From contig JAFEAQ010000011.1 of the NCBI GenBank assembly GCA_018266295.1, forward strand, positions 496,001 through 560,000: 64,000 nt of DNA. Direction: 5' to 3'. The number at the start of each line of letters is the position of its first letter. Position 1 is the first letter of the stretch. The DNA comes from Bdellovibrionales bacterium (GTDB taxonomy: Bacteria; Bdellovibrionota; Bdellovibrionia; Bdellovibrionales; Bdellovibrionaceae). A program made the translations under genes and the position numbers. The notes under the pieces are model-generated. The model saw only the letters and a program-made list of their open reading frames with translations. It was not told the DNA's origin and searched no databases. Below are positions 31,121 through 38,793 of the stretch, piece after piece.

Positions 31121-31915
31121 ATGGCAGCCCCCAATCCTTTCGACCAACAAGTCGCTATTCCTGGAGTTAAACACATTATTGCTGTGAGTTCGGGCAAGGG
31201 AGGTGTTGGCAAAAGCACGGTTGCTACTAATTTAGCCACGGCTCTTGGGCAAAAAAACAAGGTGGGGTTGCTGGACGCTGATATCTACGGGCCGAGTATT
31301 CCTCGCATGTTAGGTTCGTTGAATCAAAAACCCGGTATCACTTCAGCACAACGCCTCGAACCAGTTCAACGTTATGGTATCAAATTGATGAGCATTGGCT
31401 TTTTGATCGAAGAAAACGCTGCAGTTGTTTGGCGTGGTCCCATGCTCTTTAAAGCAATGGACCAATTCCTGCGCGATGTAGACTGGGGCGAGCTCGATTA
31501 CCTCGTGGTCGATTTGCCTCCAGGCACCGGTGATGTTCAACTTTCATTGGCACAAAAAGTTCCAGTGGCAGGCGCCGTGATGGTTTGTACGCCACAGAAC
31601 GTGGCACTCACAGATGTAAAGCGCGGCGTGGATATGTTCCAACGAGTGGGCATTAAGATGCTCGGCCTCGTTGAAAACATGGCGTACATGATCAACCCAG
31701 CGAACGGCGAAAAGATTCAGATGTTCCCTAAGGGCGAACTCGAGTCTTATATGGCCTCGAAGAACATCCCTAAAATCGGCGAGATTCCATTCAACCCGTC
31801 TGTGGGCCTTTCATGCGAAGCGGGTATTCCGATCGTCGAGAGCAATAAGAACGGCGTCGAAGCACAGGAATTCTTCCGCATCGCCGATCGCGTTCGCGAG
31901 TTGTTGCCGGTCTAA
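31121..31915 (+). CDS. Mrp/ApbC-type P-loop ATPase lacking the CPxC motif
   Basis: 264 residues with an AGGAG ribosome site. Deviant Walker A GKGGVGKST (25-33), LLDADIYGPSIPRMLG, and DLPPGTGDVQL are diagnostic of the Mrp/NBP35 family, which carries Fe-S clusters. Two family features are absent. There is no N-terminal DUF59 domain, and the cluster-binding CPxC is NPANG at residues 192-196 (in AYMINPANGEKI). So it keeps the ATPase fold but probably does not hold the bridging cluster in the normal way. Divergent from the J-domain-like gene; followed by 0.9 kb without protein genes. Confidence 0.85.
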   Translation: MAAPNPFDQQVAIPGVKHIIAVSSGKGGVGKSTVATNLATALGQKNKVGLLDADIYGPSIPRMLGSLNQKPGITSAQRLEPVQRYGIKLMSIGFLIEENAAVVWRGPMLFKAMDQFLRDVDWGELDYLVVDLPPGTGDVQLSLAQKVPVAGAVMVCTPQNVALTDVKRGVDMFQRVGIKMLGLVENMAYMINPANGEKIQMFPKGELESYMASKNIPKIGEIPFNPSVGLSCEAGIPIVESNKNGVEAQEFFRIADRVRELLPV

Positions 31916-32149: not shown

Positions 32150-32487
32150 CTTCGCTGTGCCCTGCTTGTTCCTTTTCCCTTTTTTCCCGGAGCTGATTTG
32201 GAGGACAAAAGAGGATCAAAGCGAACAACATGAGTACATCGTAAACCCCCGTGGCCTCGTGAATTTTCCCAATGAAAAACATGATTCTCAAAGTGAGATT
32301 TAACTTCGCGAACTTATTTGAGAAAATGCAGAGAGAAACTTTCAAAAAGACTTTGGTCTAGGTATTCTATGAATGTTGAAACGATGAGGCCCGGTTAACT
32401 TCCGCTCTGAGGGCCGGCATAAGGGGGTTCAGAATGTTGATTCGCCATCGCGATCACAATGACAAGTCACCAAAGTGACGATGCGGT

Positions 32488-32515
32488 TTGAAAGTTCTAA
32501 GACTCTTTAAATAAT
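32488..32515 (+). promoter_or_regulatory. Possible promoter of the riboswitch RNA
   Basis: TTGAAA (32488-32493) and AATAAT (32510-32515) with a 16-base spacer. It lies just upstream of the structured RNA. A second possible -10 (TATCTTATA, about 32525-32533) is closer to the aptamer, so the exact start is uncertain. Confidence 0.35.
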
Positions 32516-32520
32516 TAACC

Positions 32521-32796
32521 CAGGATATCTTATAGGAGGTTCCTAGCGGTCATTCTCTAAGGATTTAGATCCTTCTTTTGCCTCAAGGTAAACCATCGGA
32601 AACGGTGGGGCACAAAGCTACAGGGACTACAGCTCGTACACTATGAGCCAAGTCAGCCAGTCTGCCAAAGGTAATGAGTCACCCGAGGAATAGGTGAGCA
32701 AATGGAAGGTCAAGTTTCTAAAAATTCTATCACGGATTGGTTTCATTCCCCTAGCCTATGAGTTATTAGGATTATTTCTCATAGGCACTTTTTTTT
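32521..32796 (+). ncRNA. Orphan class I cyclic-di-GMP riboswitch RNA (GEMM-I, merRNA-like)
   Basis: A hairpin (AAGGAT/ATCCTT, 32559-32574) precedes the aptamer at about 32581-32672. The aptamer shows GEMM-I landmarks: GGTAAACC, a stem closed by a GAAA tetraloop, GGGGCACAAAGC, then a second stem GCTC/GAGC within GACT...AGTC. The residue matching G20 of the Vc2 aptamer appears to be G, which favours cyclic-di-GMP over cyclic-GMP-AMP. The RNA ends at a strong terminator (32754-32796). No ordinary gene follows on this strand; the next gene is SCO1 on the opposite strand. An orphan cyclic-di-GMP-I RNA expressed at very high level in attack phase (merRNA) has been described in Bdellovibrio, and this is probably its counterpart. 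Ends are approximate. Confidence 0.85.
32754..32796 (+). terminator. Intrinsic terminator of the riboswitch RNA
   Basis: GCCTATGAG (32754-32762) pairs perfectly with CTCATAGGC (32778-32786); AC and then eight T follow. The loop is 15 bases. It ends the cyclic-di-GMP RNA 15 bases before the SCO1 stop codon on the other strand. Confidence 0.85.
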
Positions 32797-32810
32797 GTGT
32801 CTACTCTGGA

Positions 32811-33365
32811 CTAAGGTTCAGCCAAGGTCTTCTTCAGCAAAGCCAAAAAATCATCCGCCGAAGCATCGTAACCTTCAATCGTTTTCAAAATCTCGCCTTC
32901 TTTATTCAGCAAAATAATATTATTCGAATGAACATAAGCGCCACCCGCTAAGCGTTTATATTGTACACCCAAAAGACCCGCAAGTTCCGCGACGGCCGTT
33001 TTATCACCGCGATAAATATTCCACTGCGAAGAAGTGATTTTGTACTTTTTCGTAAAATTCTTTAAAGACTCCGGAGTCTCTCGCTCATGATCAAAAGAAA
33101 ACAAATCCACTCCGACCTTTTCGGCCTCTTTCGCTGACAGCTTCGCGAGGAAATGCTTCACATCCCCAACCAACATGGGACATGCGGAAGTGCACTGGGT
33201 AAAAATCATCGAGACGATCCTTACCCGGCCCTTGAGATTTGCGAACTCCTCCGTTTTACCGTCTTGGTTGGTCCACTTTCCTTGCAGGTGATATACCGAA
33301 TTCGGACTCAGCGCCTGCGCACTGAAAGACATTAGTAATAAAATGACGACGCCTAGTGATTTCAT
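32811..33365 (-). CDS. SCO1/SenC copper chaperone
   Basis: About 184 residues from ATG at 33365, which overlaps the stop of the NirV-like gene by ATGA and has AGGA upstream. Signal peptide (SLGVVILLLMSFSAQA), then a thioredoxin-like fold with the copper site CTSACP and a distal histidine in YVHSNNIILL. SCO proteins deliver copper or reduce thiols for copper enzymes in the periplasm. Being third in an operon with copper nitrite reductase, it most likely helps assemble the copper centres of NirK. Confidence 0.92.
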   Translation of the reverse strand: MKSLGVVILLLMSFSAQALSPNSVYHLQGKWTNQDGKTEEFANLKGRVRIVSMIFTQCTSACPMLVGDVKHFLAKLSAKEAEKVGVDLFSFDHERETPESLKNFTKKYKITSSQWNIYRGDKTAVAELAGLLGVQYKRLAGGAYVHSNNIILLNKEGEILKTIEGYDASADDFLALLKKTLAEP

Positions 33366-34111
33366 GGCTGCATGTCCTTTCCACAACGGAACCCTAAATT
33401 TTCAGTGACGTAATTTCCTTTAAGACTGCTCCGAAAAGCGAAACGCATGAAGGTCGCATACTCCTCTGTCGAGGCCGCTCCGAGAGCGCCACTGCCACAA
33501 AAAAGATTTTTTTCACGGGTATTATCCGAGCGTGAATCACCTTTGATCATTACCGAGGCATAGTCCTCGACCCACTCCCAAATCAGCCCATGCATATCGT
33601 AAACGCCGAATTTATTGGCTTTCCCAGTCTTGATCGCACCCAGTTGCGAGTTCGGGCGGCCATACCATTCCAGGATTTTTTCCGAATGAGCGGGATTCTC
33701 ACTGTCGCTGGCATACTCCCATTCGTTCACGGTTAACAAACGTTTGCCCTTGAATTCGCAATACTTTCTTGCGGCAAACCACGAAACCGAAACCACTGGA
33801 TGATTTTCTTTGTTCGCGGGGATCACTTCCGCGCCCGGCCAGCTCTGGAGATAATTCTCGGTCGCAAAAACCGTCGGCACCGCCGCCCTTTTCCATTCAG
33901 GATTTTTCTTTACAAACTCTAAGTAGTCTTTATTGGTGACGGGAAATTTATCAATAAAAAAAGAACTTACCTGAGCAAGTTCCTTTTGATCTTTTTCTCT
34001 ATAAAATAATTTATAAGCGCCGGCTTTGACTTCCACCATGCCGACAGGGGGAGCCTTCGCCCCCGCCACACCTGCAAGCAAGAGAATAAAAAACAGCGCC
34101 GTTAGCTTCAT
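33362..34111 (-). CDS. nirV: NirV-like formylglycine-generating-enzyme-fold protein
   Basis: 249 residues with a signal peptide (LTALFFILLLAGVAGA). The FGE-sulfatase (SUMF1-type) fold is shown by FFIDKFPVTNKDYLEFV, NHPVVSVSWFAARKYCEFKGKRLLTVNEWEYA and FGVYDMHGLIWEWVEDY, ending RSSLKGNYVTENLGFRC. Proteins of this fold next to nirK are called NirV; their precise biochemical role in nitrite reduction is not established. It starts three bases after the nirK stop and overlaps the SCO1 gene. The paired cysteines of true formylglycine-generating enzymes are not evident. Confidence 0.85.
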   Translation of the reverse strand: MKLTALFFILLLAGVAGAKAPPVGMVEVKAGAYKLFYREKDQKELAQVSSFFIDKFPVTNKDYLEFVKKNPEWKRAAVPTVFATENYLQSWPGAEVIPANKENHPVVSVSWFAARKYCEFKGKRLLTVNEWEYASDSENPAHSEKILEWYGRPNSQLGAIKTGKANKFGVYDMHGLIWEWVEDYASVMIKGDSRSDNTREKNLFCGSGALGAASTEEYATFMRFAFRSSLKGNYVTENLGFRCGKDMQP

Positions 34112-34114
34112 AAA

Positions 34115-35533
34115 CTATTTTCCGCGAAGGGCTTTAACTTCTTTCATATTCACAAGATCCCCTTTGTTGCCCCATGAGTTACGCACATAAGTCAGAACAT
34201 TGGCAACATCGTCGTCACTCAAGCCCAACGCCGGCATCACACCATTATAAGTTTGACCGTTCACAGTCACATTTCCAGTGAGACCGTTCAACACCACCCC
34301 GATGGCTCGCTTTTTATCTTTCATCAAGAAATCAGATTTCGCCAGTGGCGGGAAGGCATTTGGAATTCCCTCGCCTTGCAGCTGATGGCAGGCCGCGCAG
34401 TTTTGTGTGAAGACGGCCTTACCGGCGTCCATACGTTGCGCAAAAGTTTTCTCTGTGATTTCTTCTTTTTTCTCAGACACCGGGATTTCTTGGATCGCGC
34501 CACCTTCCGGCAGATAGATTCCGTCTTCAGTTTTACCACTGTAAATGGTTGCATCTTTATCGCCTTCGACTTTCAGCATTCCCAATGCGCCTTTGTTAAA
34601 GGCCCGGAAGATCGAGTGATCGACCAGAATATAAGTCGCTGGAATCTGAGTTTTGAATTCAACAATCGAAGAGCCGCCCGCCGGGATCAAAGTCGTCTGG
34701 ACGTTTTTTTGATTCGGAATGACGCCGCCTTCGGTGTAAACCTGATCAAAAATCTCACCAATGATGTGAAATGAAGAGACTAAACTCGGTCCACCGTTGC
34801 CGACGAACATACGAATAGAATCACCCGCTTTTGCCTTTAAGGCATTGTCGTTAGTAATGGCACCGACGGAACCATTAAACACCACATAGTCCGGCTGTTC
34901 TTTCACGGCTTTATTCATATCAAATGGTTGCAGGCCGCGTGCACCGTATTTGCCTTTCGTGTAGAACTCACTCTGAAGAATGTAGAACTCTTTGTCCACC
35001 GGTGGCAGGCCCTTTTCAGGCTCCACAAAAATCAGACCATACATTCCGTTGGCAATATGCATCCCCACCGGAGCTGTTGCACAATGATAGATGTAAAGGC
35101 CCGGGTTGAGAGCACGGAAAGAAAATGTCGAGCTATGCCCAGGAGCCGTGAAGGAGCCTTCGGCTCCGCCACCTTGGCCAGTCACCGCGTGAAGGTCAAT
35201 ATTGTGTGGCATTTTGCTGCTAGGATGATTGGCCAAAGTAAAGTCGACATAGTCCCCTTCACGAATACGAATGAAAGGTCCCGGAACAGAGCCGCCGAAA
35301 GTCCAAAAAGTATATTCAACTCCGTCGGCCAGCCTTTTAACAACTTCTTTAGTTTCAAGATGAATTTTCACACGCGCCGGTTTTTTTCTTGTGATGGGCG
35401 GAGGAACTTCCGGAGCATGGGTCAGGGTCGCCTTCTCCACAGGTAGAGAATTAATATCGATCTTTTCCGCACTCCAGGCAGTTTCCAGCGCCAGGATGAC
35501 AGCAACCGACGAGACAAGTTTCAGGGTTTTCAT
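34115..35533 (-). CDS. nirK: Copper nitrite reductase fused to cytochrome c
   Basis: Reduces nitrite to nitric oxide in the periplasm. The 472-residue protein has a signal peptide, two cupredoxin domains (about 50-330) and a C-terminal cytochrome c domain (about 362-455). Type 1 copper ligands are H110, C151, H159 and M164; type 2 ligands H115, H150 and H306; catalytic D113 and H256. The heme motif is C379-A-A-C382-H383 with GVMPALG as likely axial Met. The fused cytochrome delivers electrons directly, as in other three-domain NirK. The ATG follows GGAGG, and an Fnr/Dnr box lies 48 bases upstream. Operon nirK-nirV-SCO1. Confidence 0.95.
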   Translation of the reverse strand: MKTLKLVSSVAVILALETAWSAEKIDINSLPVEKATLTHAPEVPPPITRKKPARVKIHLETKEVVKRLADGVEYTFWTFGGSVPGPFIRIREGDYVDFTLANHPSSKMPHNIDLHAVTGQGGGAEGSFTAPGHSSTFSFRALNPGLYIYHCATAPVGMHIANGMYGLIFVEPEKGLPPVDKEFYILQSEFYTKGKYGARGLQPFDMNKAVKEQPDYVVFNGSVGAITNDNALKAKAGDSIRMFVGNGGPSLVSSFHIIGEIFDQVYTEGGVIPNQKNVQTTLIPAGGSSIVEFKTQIPATYILVDHSIFRAFNKGALGMLKVEGDKDATIYSGKTEDGIYLPEGGAIQEIPVSEKKEEITEKTFAQRMDAGKAVFTQNCAACHQLQGEGIPNAFPPLAKSDFLMKDKKRAIGVVLNGLTGNVTVNGQTYNGVMPALGLSDDDVANVLTYVRNSWGNKGDLVNMKEVKALRGK

Positions 35534-35580
35534 TTGAGCCTCCGATGACTATAGATTAATATAGTATGTGTAAGAGCAAA

Positions 35581-35594
35581 TTGATTTGAATCAA
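35581..35594. promoter_or_regulatory. Fnr/Dnr box between nirK and crp-like gene
   Basis: TTGAT-TTGA-ATCAA, a perfect Fnr/Dnr-type palindrome. A minus-strand -10-like TATATT at 35558-35563 would place the box near -41 for nirK, as in class II Fnr promoters. It also lies 46 bases before the divergent regulator start. Confidence 0.8.
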
Positions 35595-35639
35595 ATTGTT
35601 TAAATTAAACTCCATCTGGACTGCCTGAGGAGAGAGCTT

Positions 35640-36314
35640 GTGACAAAAAGTCCCAACCCCGCCCTTTTTAAAACCCGCCCTACGGATCATTGTCCTATTT
35701 GCTCGTCTCAAGAAGAGACAGTGACAGACCAGATCCTGAAAGCTATTCAGCATAAGACCTATCCCAAAGGAACGATTGTTTTCAGCCAGGAGCAAGCCAG
35801 CAGCGGGCTTTTCCTGATCTACAAGGGCACTGTCAAAGTGTCGCGCATTTCGCCCGCGGGAAAAGAAATTATCATCGAGATCTTGGGCTCCGGAAAAACC
35901 CTTGGCGAAAGCAGCCTCTTCGGCCAAGGCCAACACTCCGATACGGCCGTCACTGCTGAGAATGCAGAGCTGTTTCTTATTCCGAAAGATGATTTCAAAA
36001 AACTTCTGGCGGATCATCCTCAACTTTATCAAAACGTTCTCCACAGCCTGGTTCAATGGATGGATAAGCTCAATGCGGTGATCGAAAATATCAACATTTC
36101 GTCCGCCAAGGACCGAGTCTATGCCTACCTTATGAAAATACAAAAAGAACAACAGCGAACCCTGATCCATCTCACAGGTAAAAAACACGAGGTCGCTTTG
36201 ATGTTGGGACTTCGTCCTGAAACCTTTTCGCGCACCCTGGCGGAACTTGAAACTGAAGGCCTGATTAAAATGAATCACAAGCAGATTCAGATTTTGATTA
36301 ACAAAGAAACTTAG
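35640..36314 (+). CDS. Crp/Fnr-family regulator (Dnr/Nnr-like candidate)
   Basis: 224 residues from GTG at 35640, with GAGGAGAG upstream. A cyclic-nucleotide-binding-like beta-barrel (about 30-145: YPKGTIVFSQEQASSGLFLIYKG in parts) and a dimer helix precede the winged helix DNA-binding domain, whose recognition helix reads ALMLGLRPETFSRTLAELETEG. The E-T-F-S-R core matches Fnr/Dnr proteins that bind TTGAT-N4-ATCAA. An N-terminal CPIC pair is present but not the four cysteines of an oxygen-sensing Fnr, so it is probably an NO- or redox-responsive Dnr type. Divergent from nirK with the box between them. Confidence 0.88.
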   Translation: MTKSPNPALFKTRPTDHCPICSSQEETVTDQILKAIQHKTYPKGTIVFSQEQASSGLFLIYKGTVKVSRISPAGKEIIIEILGSGKTLGESSLFGQGQHSDTAVTAENAELFLIPKDDFKKLLADHPQLYQNVLHSLVQWMDKLNAVIENINISSAKDRVYAYLMKIQKEQQRTLIHLTGKKHEVALMLGLRPETFSRTLAELETEGLIKMNHKQIQILINKET

Positions 36315-36415
36315 ACCTAAAAATCAATTACTAGTGAGATAGATCAGGGATGGATACAATCCCTAGTGTGTTTCTTACATGAGTGGGTATCGTCAGAATA
36401 ACGAAGGCGGTTCCC

Positions 36416-36886
36416 ATGAAGATCTACAAGTTCGATATTCTCTTCCAGGAAGTTCCCGGTCACATGAGTCTGGCTTTTTACGTATGTGGCTGTCCGCTCC
36501 GCTGCCAGGGCTGTCATTCTCCGGAACTCTGGTTTGAGCACAACGGCTTTACTCTGACTGAATCTCTCTTCAGATCTCTTCTCGATAAATACGCCGGCAA
36601 AATCAGCTGCGTACTTTTTCTTGGCGGTGAATGGTGCCCTCAGGAACTCATCCTATTTTTACGCCTCGTGGAAGATAGAAATCTAATGACTGCTCTTTAT
36701 ACAGGTCATTAAGACGTCTCTGAAAATATAAAGTCACATCTTCATTTTCTAAAATGTGGCCGGTGGATCGCCGCGCTTGGCGGCCTTTCATCTCCGACGA
36801 CTAATCAGATTTTCTGGGATGTAAAAAATAAAATTAAACTCAATCACTTGTTCCAACAAGCTGCACAACCAAAGGAGACCCCATGA
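36416..36886 (+). pseudogene. nrdG: nrdG, radical-SAM activator of NrdD, broken by in-frame TAA
   Basis: From ATG at 36416 (MKIYKFDILFQEVPGH) the frame encodes the NrdG N-terminus with the radical SAM cysteines GCPLRCQGC and the LGGEWCPQELILFLR block, then stops at TAA 36710-36712 after LYTGH. The same frame then continues for 57 codons as DVSENIKSHLHFLKCGRW, LGGLSSPTTNQIFWDV and LNHLFQ, the expected NrdG C-terminus, to a TGA at 36884 overlapping the nrdD ATG (ATGATG). Read through, the protein would have normal family length (about 156). A GAA-to-TAA change explains it. The 98-residue product left is unlikely to work, unless the stop is a sequencing error. NrdG makes the glycyl radical on NrdD. 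Confidence 0.85.
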
Positions 36887-38793
36887 TGGTTCGACTCTCT
36901 GCTGAACAGATTCAGCAAAAAATGGATTTTATAAACAGCTATCTTCATGCCGCTAATGCGGCGGATGGCTCTCGGCTCGATGCGAATGCCAATGTCACAC
37001 ATAAGAACGTGGCGACTCTCGAGGCTGAGATCAATAAGGATATCAATATTCAAGTCAATCGCGCGCTCGTAGCCGATAAAATCGCACGGCTTTTTGGCGC
37101 GGAGCTCAGCAAGGAATATCTGCGCCAGATCGAAGAACACGAAATCTATGTGCATGATGAAACGTCTTTGAAACCTTACTGCGCTTCGATTTCAATGTAT
37201 CCGCTGTTGCTCGAAGGCCTTAAAGGCCTTGGCGGCGAATCCGCGGCGCCAAGGCATCTTGAAAGTTTCTGCGGCTGTTTTGTGAATTTGGTCTTTGCTA
37301 TTTCCTCGCAATTTGCCGGCGCTGTAGCGACGGTGGAGTGGATCATGTACTTTGACCACTTCGCTCGCAAAGATTACGGCGATAACTACTTGGAAACCCA
37401 CTCGCAACTGATCAACAATCATCTGCAGCACGTAGTTTACGCCCTCAATCAACCTGCAGCGGCCCGTGGCTATCAATCAGTGTTTTGGAATATCTCCGTC
37501 TATGACGAGTCCTATTTCAAATCCCTCTTCGGCGATTTTGTTTTTCCCACCGGAGAAAAACCCGTTTGGACCAGTGTTCAGAAACTCCAAAAACATTTTA
37601 TGTCCTGGTTCAACGAGGAAAGAAAAAAAGCTCTCCTGACCTTCCCCGTGGTGACGGCGGCGATGTTAATTAAGAACGGGAGCCCAAAGGACACCGACTT
37701 CGCAAGAATGTGCGCTCAAGAGCTCAGCCAGGGAAACAGCTTCTTTATGTACATGAGCCCTTCGGCCGACAGCCTGGCCAGCTGTTGCCGGCTGCGTAAC
37801 GAAATTTCCGACAATACCTTTAGTTACTCCCTTGGGGCCGGAGGTGTTGCGACGGGGTCTATCAATGTCATCACGATCAATATGAATCGTTTGGTACAAA
37901 AGAAAATCGACCTCTTGGCCACCGTTGAAAAAGTGCAAAAATACCAGGTGGCCTATCGCCATTTAATGCAAGAGTATTTCGATGCCGGCCTCCTGACAGC
38001 CTATCGCGCGGGCTTTATCTCTTTAGAAAAACAATTTCTCACAATAGGCATCAATGGTATGGCTGAGGCCGCGGAATCCCAGGGACTTTGCGTTGGTAAC
38101 AACCAGCCTTATAAAGACTTCGTGCGCGAAAAGCTGAAAGTCATTTATGAAGCCAATAAAAAGGCGAAGAAAAATTTCCAATTTATGTTCAACACCGAGT
38201 TCGTACCGGCGGAAAACCTGGGAGTAAAAAACGCTCAATGGGACCGACGCGATGGACTGAAGGTCCCCAGAGACTGCTATAATTCATACTTCTATATTGT
38301 CGAAGACGACTCGGTCAACGCTCTCGACAAAATGGATCTACACGGACACGAGATGATGCAATACCTTGATGGTGGTTCGGCCCTGCATTTGAATCTGGAA
38401 GAAAAACTGACCGCCGAAGGTTTTCAGAAACTCATTAATGCCGCTGCCCTCTCTGGCTGTAATTATTGGTGTGTGAATATCAAAATCACAATCTGCAACA
38501 AGTGCGACCATCTTGACAAACGCACGTTGTATGCCTGCCCTCAGTGCGGCAGTGAGGATGTGGACCATGCCACTCGCGTGATTGGCTACCTGAAGCGGAT
38601 CTCCAACTTTAGCGCCGCCCGCCGCAAAGAAGCCGCGCGCAGATTCTATCACGTTACGGCATCGGCTTCAGACGCAAAATCTTCGGTAGAAATACGCCAC
38701 CCCATACGAGCAGCCCTAGAATCCATGCATACGATGCATAGATCAGATGCGACTGGTAAATATGCGGAGCAAACCCCGCCGATAAGCGTGTAA
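36883..38793 (+). CDS. nrdD: Anaerobic (class III) ribonucleotide reductase
   Basis: Oxygen-sensitive glycyl-radical enzyme making deoxynucleotides without oxygen. ATG at 36883 follows AAGGAGACCCC and overlaps the end of the nrdG frame. 636 residues with the family core (DANANVTHKNVATLEAEINK, about 34-53), GAGGVATGSINVITINMNRL, the zinc cysteines CNKC and CPQC, and the glycyl radical motif TRVIGYL with Gly 568. No N-terminal ATP-cone is present, so allosteric control differs from E. coli NrdD. About 45 residues after the usual end (RRFYH) overlap the nnrS gene on the other strand by 140 bases. Function depends on NrdG, whose gene is broken here. Confidence 0.93.
   Translation: MMVRLSAEQIQQKMDFINSYLHAANAADGSRLDANANVTHKNVATLEAEINKDINIQVNRALVADKIARLFGAELSKEYLRQIEEHEIYVHDETSLKPYCASISMYPLLLEGLKGLGGESAAPRHLESFCGCFVNLVFAISSQFAGAVATVEWIMYFDHFARKDYGDNYLETHSQLINNHLQHVVYALNQPAAARGYQSVFWNISVYDESYFKSLFGDFVFPTGEKPVWTSVQKLQKHFMSWFNEERKKALLTFPVVTAAMLIKNGSPKDTDFARMCAQELSQGNSFFMYMSPSADSLASCCRLRNEISDNTFSYSLGAGGVATGSINVITINMNRLVQKKIDLLATVEKVQKYQVAYRHLMQEYFDAGLLTAYRAGFISLEKQFLTIGINGMAEAAESQGLCVGNNQPYKDFVREKLKVIYEANKKAKKNFQFMFNTEFVPAENLGVKNAQWDRRDGLKVPRDCYNSYFYIVEDDSVNALDKMDLHGHEMMQYLDGGSALHLNLEEKLTAEGFQKLINAAALSGCNYWCVNIKITICNKCDHLDKRTLYACPQCGSEDVDHATRVIGYLKRISNFSAARRKEAARRFYHVTASASDAKSSVEIRHPIRAALESMHTMHRSDATGKYAEQTPPISV

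Follow-up and report, generated by a model that had tools for sequence, protein, structure and literature searches.

Two conserved micro-ORFs flank the c-di-GMP-I aptamer of merRNA-type RNAs in the Bdellovibrionaceae

The aptamer and its genomic neighborhood

In the window, which is the whole 64,000-nt stretch of DNA analyzed, a GEMM-I aptamer is located between the mrp gene and a convergent SCO1/SenC gene, and a short reading frame lies on each side of it. The features of the locus, all on the forward strand, are as follows:

31121-31915 (+): mrp (ApbC/NUBPL-type ATPase; PF10609, E 4e-94), the conserved syntenic neighbor
32340-32368 (+): predicted promoter with the -10-like TATTCT at 32363-32368; its family form is conserved upstream of ORF1
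32380-32796 (+): predicted whole transcript, the merRNA orthologue, of about 410-420 nt, from alignment to the limits of the HD100 merRNA
32423-32427 (+): Shine-Dalgarno-like GGGGG (within AAGGGGG) of ORF1, 6 nt before the ATG; GGAGG or GGGGG in relatives
32434-32478 (+): micro-ORF1, MLIRHRDHNDKSPK and a stop (14 aa); synonymous-codon conservation in families f1, f7, f9, and f10
32532-32539 (+): G-rich strand ATAGGAGG (AAAGGAGG elsewhere), near-invariant in alignment A1; complementary to CCUUCUUU ahead of the aptamer, and a proposed competitor of P0 and P1
32571-32576 (+): 5' strand CCUUCU of helix P0, which encloses the aptamer; pairs with GGAAGG (97% in 39 relatives)
32577-32669 (+): GEMM-I (c-di-GMP-I) aptamer; RF01051, 60.7 bits; the Vc2 G20-equivalent is G
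32692-32696 (+): Shine-Dalgarno-like AGGUG of ORF2, 5 nt upstream of the start at 32702 and, from the sequence, in a CACC/GGUG hairpin
32702-32761 (+): micro-ORF2, MEGQVSKNSITDWFHSPSL and a stop (19 aa); frame ending in DWFHSP or RFHSP kept in Bdellovibrionaceae
32704-32709 (+): 3' strand GGAAGG of P0; its first base is the G of the ORF2 ATG
32754-32796 (+): intrinsic terminator with a 9-bp stem and a T run, from the fold; it matches the mapped 3' end of the HD100 merRNA

The covariance-model search called for by the first-pass annotation gave a score above the gathering threshold of 35: the match with RF01051 at 32577-32669 (+) reached 60.7 bits (E 2.1e-9). It spans model positions 1-87, that is, all 87, and the genome-wide search identified this aptamer as the sole GEMM-I in the 4.22 Mb genome, which bears out the earlier claim of a complete aptamer. 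It is predicted, with near certainty, to be functional. The Vc2 G20 position is a ligand contact that is occupied by A in cGAMP-type variants. The residue that we take to be its equivalent is G in the window aptamer, as well as in the 89 GEMM-I loci found in the order, 58 by pattern match and the other 31 by reading. Because this residue is G throughout, c-di-GMP is favored over cGAMP, and a cGAMP-type ligand was set aside as improbable. The Rfam variant c-di-GMP-I-GGC (RF03167) was also rejected as the identity of the window aptamer. All ten sampled members of the order match that model, and two of them (from f7 and f9) exceed its cut-off; however, the window, at 41.3, falls short of the cut-off of 59 and is better fitted by RF01051. 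The window aptamer shares with other GEMM-I RNAs the sequence and fold over the 87 model positions and the G at Vc2 G20, whereas their usual targets are full-size genes and here a 19-codon ORF follows and a micro-ORF precedes the aptamer.

The strong terminator noted earlier downstream of the aptamer was recovered as the hairpin GCCTATGAG...CTCATAGGC (32754-32786); the T run behind it extends to approximately 32796. The hairpin is present in the minimum-energy fold; a simple terminator scanner missed it owing to a loop longer than 8. The next gene of annotated size is SCO1/SenC (32811-33386, -), convergent with the RNA, and the statement that genes of the opposite strand come next was likewise correct. 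A mechanically called 85-aa ORF (32694-32951) was dismissed as a full-size downstream target, since it crosses the terminator and no counterpart was seen in relatives.

The convergent arrangement, which is common among the loci, would suit a riboswitch acting in antisense to the downstream gene. However, that gene varies, being SCO1 in the window, an aminotransferase-like gene in HD100, and mltD in many other genomes, and the SCO1 stop codon at 32811 lies beyond the end of the terminator. An antisense role against SCO1 was therefore discarded as highly improbable.

In the window, a cassette (32811-38793) sits between the RNA and its usual mltD neighbor. It encodes SCO1/SenC, an FGE-sulfatase-domain protein, and a possible nitrite reductase of 472 aa in which a multicopper oxidase is joined to cytochrome c. 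Judging by sequence, two further genes in it, at 35640-36314 and 36883-38793, code for a Crp/FNR-like regulator and an anaerobic ribonucleotide reductase, respectively. The cassette is possibly an anaerobic or denitrification island.

Orthology with merRNA and distribution in the order

Genome G003, which we take to be that of Bdellovibrio bacteriovorus HD100, has only one GEMM-I match, at 1,073,868-1,073,951 (-). This match falls within the published coordinates of merRNA, a 445-nt transcript (1,074,185 to 1,073,741, -; PMC3627812). Its abundance was given as approximately 2.0 million RPKM, twice that of tmRNA, for attack phase and as 407 for growth phase (PMC3627812). Karunker et al. (2013, PMC3627812) treated merRNA as a non-coding RNA: they reported no conserved ORF downstream of the aptamer and no conservation beyond the Bdellovibrio lineage, and put forward, as speculation, a role as a c-di-GMP store or sponge.

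Comparison of the two loci showed that mrp lies upstream in both, 664 nt away in the window and 448 nt away in HD100. Both RNAs have a single GEMM-I in their 3' half, a terminator at their end, and a promoter-like element, and beyond the aptamer they have in common the blocks AGGAGGTTCCTAG, ATGGAAGG, and GGATTGGTTTCATTCCCC. In HD100, the aptamer begins approximately 234 nt into merRNA and the mapped 3' end is just past the T run of the terminator. With an orthologous locus, a terminator at the 3' end, and blocks of conservation throughout the transcript, the merRNA-type identity suggested by the first-pass annotation is upheld: judged by sequence and synteny, the window RNA is the orthologue of the HD100 merRNA. 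By analogy with HD100, massive expression of the window RNA in attack phase may be expected.

Since the HD100 aptamer starts 234 nt inside merRNA and a matching promoter-like element is present, the window transcript should by homology start at approximately 32375-32385; the start at 32521 assumed previously is too far 3'. The element, TTTGGTCTAGGTATTCTATG at 32352-32371, is the window counterpart of the one found in HD100 near the mapped merRNA start. Its family form is TTGAAA-N17/18-TATCCT/TATTCT with GGTC within the spacer, and related elements occur upstream of ORF1 in g1, g4, g10, g12, and g17. In the window, the -35 is weak, and the site was absent from the output of a simple promoter scan.

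Exactly one GEMM-I was found in 59/66 genomes of the family, covering 20/20 genera, and the aptamer was present in 89/141 genomes of the order; thus, the range of merRNA, limited in the 2013 description to the Bdellovibrio lineage, is widened to the order. Most of the 89 loci adjoin mrp and/or an mltD-like transglycosylase gene. In three family genomes without the aptamer (G017, G019, and G064), the absence is probably an assembly artefact, because their contigs end 305-657 nt after mrp. The RNA is inverted relative to mrp in three genomes (G041, G071, and G140) and is therefore a gene of its own; the same orientation rules out an origin by processing of the mrp 3' UTR. Of 21 contigs in the GTDB collection with an exact match to a 19-mer taken from the 3' part, 20 were from the Bdellovibrio group or from genomes analyzed here; the remaining contig (L168) does not carry the RNA, and its match appears to be fortuitous. 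A single GEMM-I is also present in other classes of the phylum. In the loci read there (L136-L153), mostly from one family, it belongs to a terminator-ended RNA with a different conserved platform: UGAAGAGG, upstream of the aptamer, is able to pair with CCUCUUCA, which precedes the terminator. No evident micro-ORF was found in these RNAs.

Two micro-ORFs around the aptamer

The RNA had been described as ending before any gene, with no downstream cis target. This description does not hold, since a conserved micro-ORF2 lies between the aptamer and the terminator and ORF1 lies upstream. The orphan label most likely reflects the size cut-offs used for genes; ORFs as short as these are easily missed.

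In the window, ORF1 begins approximately 55 nt past the predicted transcript start. Its general layout is GGAGG or GGGGG, followed by ATG or GTG and 9-19 codons. Equivalents were identified in 63/89 loci from four families (f1, f7, f9, and f10), comprising 44/59 loci of Bdellovibrionaceae (f1) and 19/30 others; none was found in 15/59 family loci (g19, g9, and others), and f6 also has LDSPPK by eye. The HD100 merRNA encodes MRTHEHHDDELK at approximately 1,074,121-1,074,083 (-), and further examples are MKNRIHDHHDEPPK (g4), MKRIFSHNDKVPK (g17), MKRRRAGRCHHLADPGYE (g3), MGFDPRERSLDPPPK (f7), MSKLPKEWLLDPPPK (f9), and MAKVKIFRLDPPPE (f10). The C-termini are conserved as HNDKSPK, LADPGYE, or RLDPPPK with synonymous codons: CCT, CCG, CCA, and CCC replace one another, the stops are TGA, TAG, or TAA, and third positions are the most variable. 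After shuffling of alignment columns, the observed amino acid identity was reached in 1/20000 shuffles for g4, 0/20000 for g17, 0/20000 for f9, 1/20000 for the DPPP group, and 52/20000 for the f1 DH group. Because the ORFs for this test were picked by their C-terminal motif, control windows from the same loci were run: a loose ORF1 motif with a Shine-Dalgarno sequence occurred in 51/88 element windows compared with 1/5563 control windows. This coding signal suggests that ORF1 is very probably translated.

ORF2 starts 32 nt past the aptamer, and its AUG abuts the helix enclosing the aptamer. The window form runs two codons beyond HSP, to SPSL, with its stop within the terminator stem, and so differs by two extra residues (SL) from MEGTNTYKDWFHSP of HD100 (approximately 1,073,832-1,073,788, -). 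The frame ends in DWFHSP-stop in HD100 and in G043 (MEVESSVTKVTQNYIMDWFHSP), and in RFHSP, RFYSP, or similar forms elsewhere (G035, MNSFFSEKYRFHSP; G057, MERFYSP). F[HY][SP]P-stop was detected in 45/59 family loci but in 1/9286 control windows. The distance from ATGGAAG to TTTCATTCC takes the values 30, 33, 36, 39, 42, 45, and 54, and is a multiple of three in 43/45 loci (42/44 when counted more cautiously), the exceptions being G025 and G047. These patterns indicate that ORF2 is probably translated, a conclusion held with less confidence than for ORF1.

In G025, G047, and G065, ORF2 is either missing or out of frame. In f7 and f9, no ORF2 is evident and the aptamer is retained; the aptamer therefore cannot exist only for ORF2. 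After mrp in approximately 20 genomes of the order that lack the aptamer, the micro-ORFs were not found. An ATG with a perfect Shine-Dalgarno sequence occupies the ORF2 position in f5. The f5 loci L106-L108 have no DWFHSP; there, the Shine-Dalgarno sequence and ATG open into Pro-rich frames (IFRPPYPPP, LHPPYSPQ), two of which overlap the terminator.

Both micro-ORFs are thus present in the HD100 merRNA as in the window, and instead of a transcript lacking a coding target we found one with two conserved micro-ORFs. This corrects, on sequence grounds, the non-coding description of merRNA, while the assignment of the window RNA to merRNA stands.

The DWFHSP codons are invariant across genera, third positions included, and for this reason constraint at the nucleotide or RNA level may add to, or partly explain, the conservation of the peptide. 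Invariance of the third codon positions across distant genera is likewise seen in UUUCAUUCCCC (window 32742-32752), whose complement GGGGAAUGAAA resembles a ribosome-binding site with a start codon. Dual-function RNAs such as SgrS/SgrT and RNAIII/delta-haemolysin combine a regulatory RNA part with a short ORF. The window RNA resembles them in this, and differs in having a second-messenger aptamer, two micro-ORFs, and no known base-pairing target. By analogy, the invariant GAUUGGUUUCAUUCCCC could pair with target mRNAs in trans, gated by c-di-GMP, with the peptides as a second product. Its invariance at the nucleotide level and the likeness of its complement to a ribosome-binding region agree with such a function, but GAUUGGUUUCAUUCCCC is in frame and ends at the stop in most relatives, and other genera keep the RFHSP/RFYSP residues with changed bases. 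A dual-function RNA is regarded as improbable. The view that GAUUGGUUUCAUUCCCC serves solely as a structural or seed element was rejected, as the stretch is in frame and encodes residues that other genera keep with other codons.

A putative c-di-GMP switch at the ORF2 start

The helix P0 directly encloses the aptamer, and 97% of its cells are paired in the 39 relatives, with eight cells changed on both sides. The two-sided changes affect two pairs, from C-G to A-U and to U-A; the 5' strand is CCUUCC in relatives and CCUUCU in the window. Across the complete drawn structure, the paired fraction is 88% of cells and drops to 35-50% with slid partners. The ORF2 ATG abuts the P0 strand in g1, g4, g11, g17, and g19, whereas in the basal genera (G001, G002, G030, G031, G035, and G039) GGAAGG(A) of P0 is Shine-Dalgarno-like and stands just before a later ORF2 ATG. 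Thus, as in translational riboswitches, the start or Shine-Dalgarno region of a downstream ORF is part of the putative switching helix. Upstream by 30-60 nt, the near-invariant AAAGGAGG can pair with CCUUCCUUU in competition with P0 and P1.

The location of P0 at the ORF2 start, together with the putative competitor strand upstream, suggests a translational OFF switch operated by c-di-GMP. The RNA would be an autonomous, terminator-ended transcript of approximately 410 nt with micro-ORF1, the G-rich strand, P0, the GEMM-I aptamer, micro-ORF2, and the terminator, that is, a two-cistron micro-mRNA in which a cis-acting c-di-GMP riboswitch has micro-ORF2 as its target. Binding of c-di-GMP would allow P1 and the enclosing P0 (CCUUC(C/U)/GGAAGG) to form and hold the start or Shine-Dalgarno region of ORF2; with the ligand absent, the upstream (A)AAGGAGG would pair with CCUUCCUUU, break P0 and P1, and free ORF2. 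ORF1 would be translated from its own upstream site and is not obviously ligand-controlled. A two-cistron micro-mRNA whose ORF2 translation is repressed by c-di-GMP binding is, in our opinion, the best reading, with slightly better than even chances; for c-di-GMP control of ORF2 as such, we consider the chances to be even.

Regarding the competitor helix, complementarity was observed and no covariation. Forced bound-like and competitor folds differ by approximately 1-6 kcal/mol, both being less stable than the free fold, and the unconstrained fold of the window RNA contains neither P0 nor the competitor helix. RNAalifold predicts an extended P1 and not P0.

The sponge idea (Karunker et al., 2013) supposes that huge amounts of the RNA hold c-di-GMP in attack phase and release it quickly, the micro-ORFs being minor or RNA-stabilizing. 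The excess of merRNA in attack over growth phase, at twice the tmRNA level (PMC3627812), speaks for it, as do f7 and f9, where the aptamer persists without ORF2, and the terminator-ended aptamer RNAs of other classes with no evident ORF. However, conserved reading frames, Shine-Dalgarno sequences, and in-frame indels alongside the aptamer would be superfluous in a sponge, and each transcript has a single aptamer and each genome a single locus. As the main role, a sponge is possible but rather unlikely; it could co-exist with the micro-mRNA.

The peptides of the proposed micro-mRNA may be small regulators of the motile-to-growth switch, or the ORFs may pause ribosomes; the latter was considered because ORF1 often ends in PPK or SPK and ORF2 in SP-stop in most relatives. 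Poly-proline and C-terminal proline slow ribosomes. Stalling at the ends of both ORFs might, for instance, protect the RNA or hold ribosomes in attack phase, and Pro-rich C-termini beside the stop codon are indeed widespread. However, the N-terminal residues RIHDHHD and PKDW are conserved too, which suggests more than a pause, and leaders acting by pausing alone seem improbable.

Since 2013, merRNA has been a curiosity, a riboswitch expressed at enormous levels yet lacking a target, for which a speculative sponge served as the explanation; conserved micro-ORFs around the aptamer offer a possible ordinary target, make this long-standing speculation testable, and would tie c-di-GMP to micropeptides in bacterial predation. 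We tentatively propose, at somewhat less than even chances, that an attack-phase RNA ranking among the most abundant in Bdellovibrio is a micro-operon, in which two conserved micropeptides (approximately 14 and 14-19 aa) flank an aptamer switching the second, and that the peptides or paused ribosomes, not a sponge, carry the c-di-GMP signal for the switch of the predatory life cycle.

In the RNA of G140 (f10, locus L135), two micro-ORFs, MAKVKIFRLDPPPE and MKLHSKQWNLFPPPI, stand in tandem before the aptamer; as each has its own Shine-Dalgarno sequence, this arrangement suggests a duplication within the RNA.
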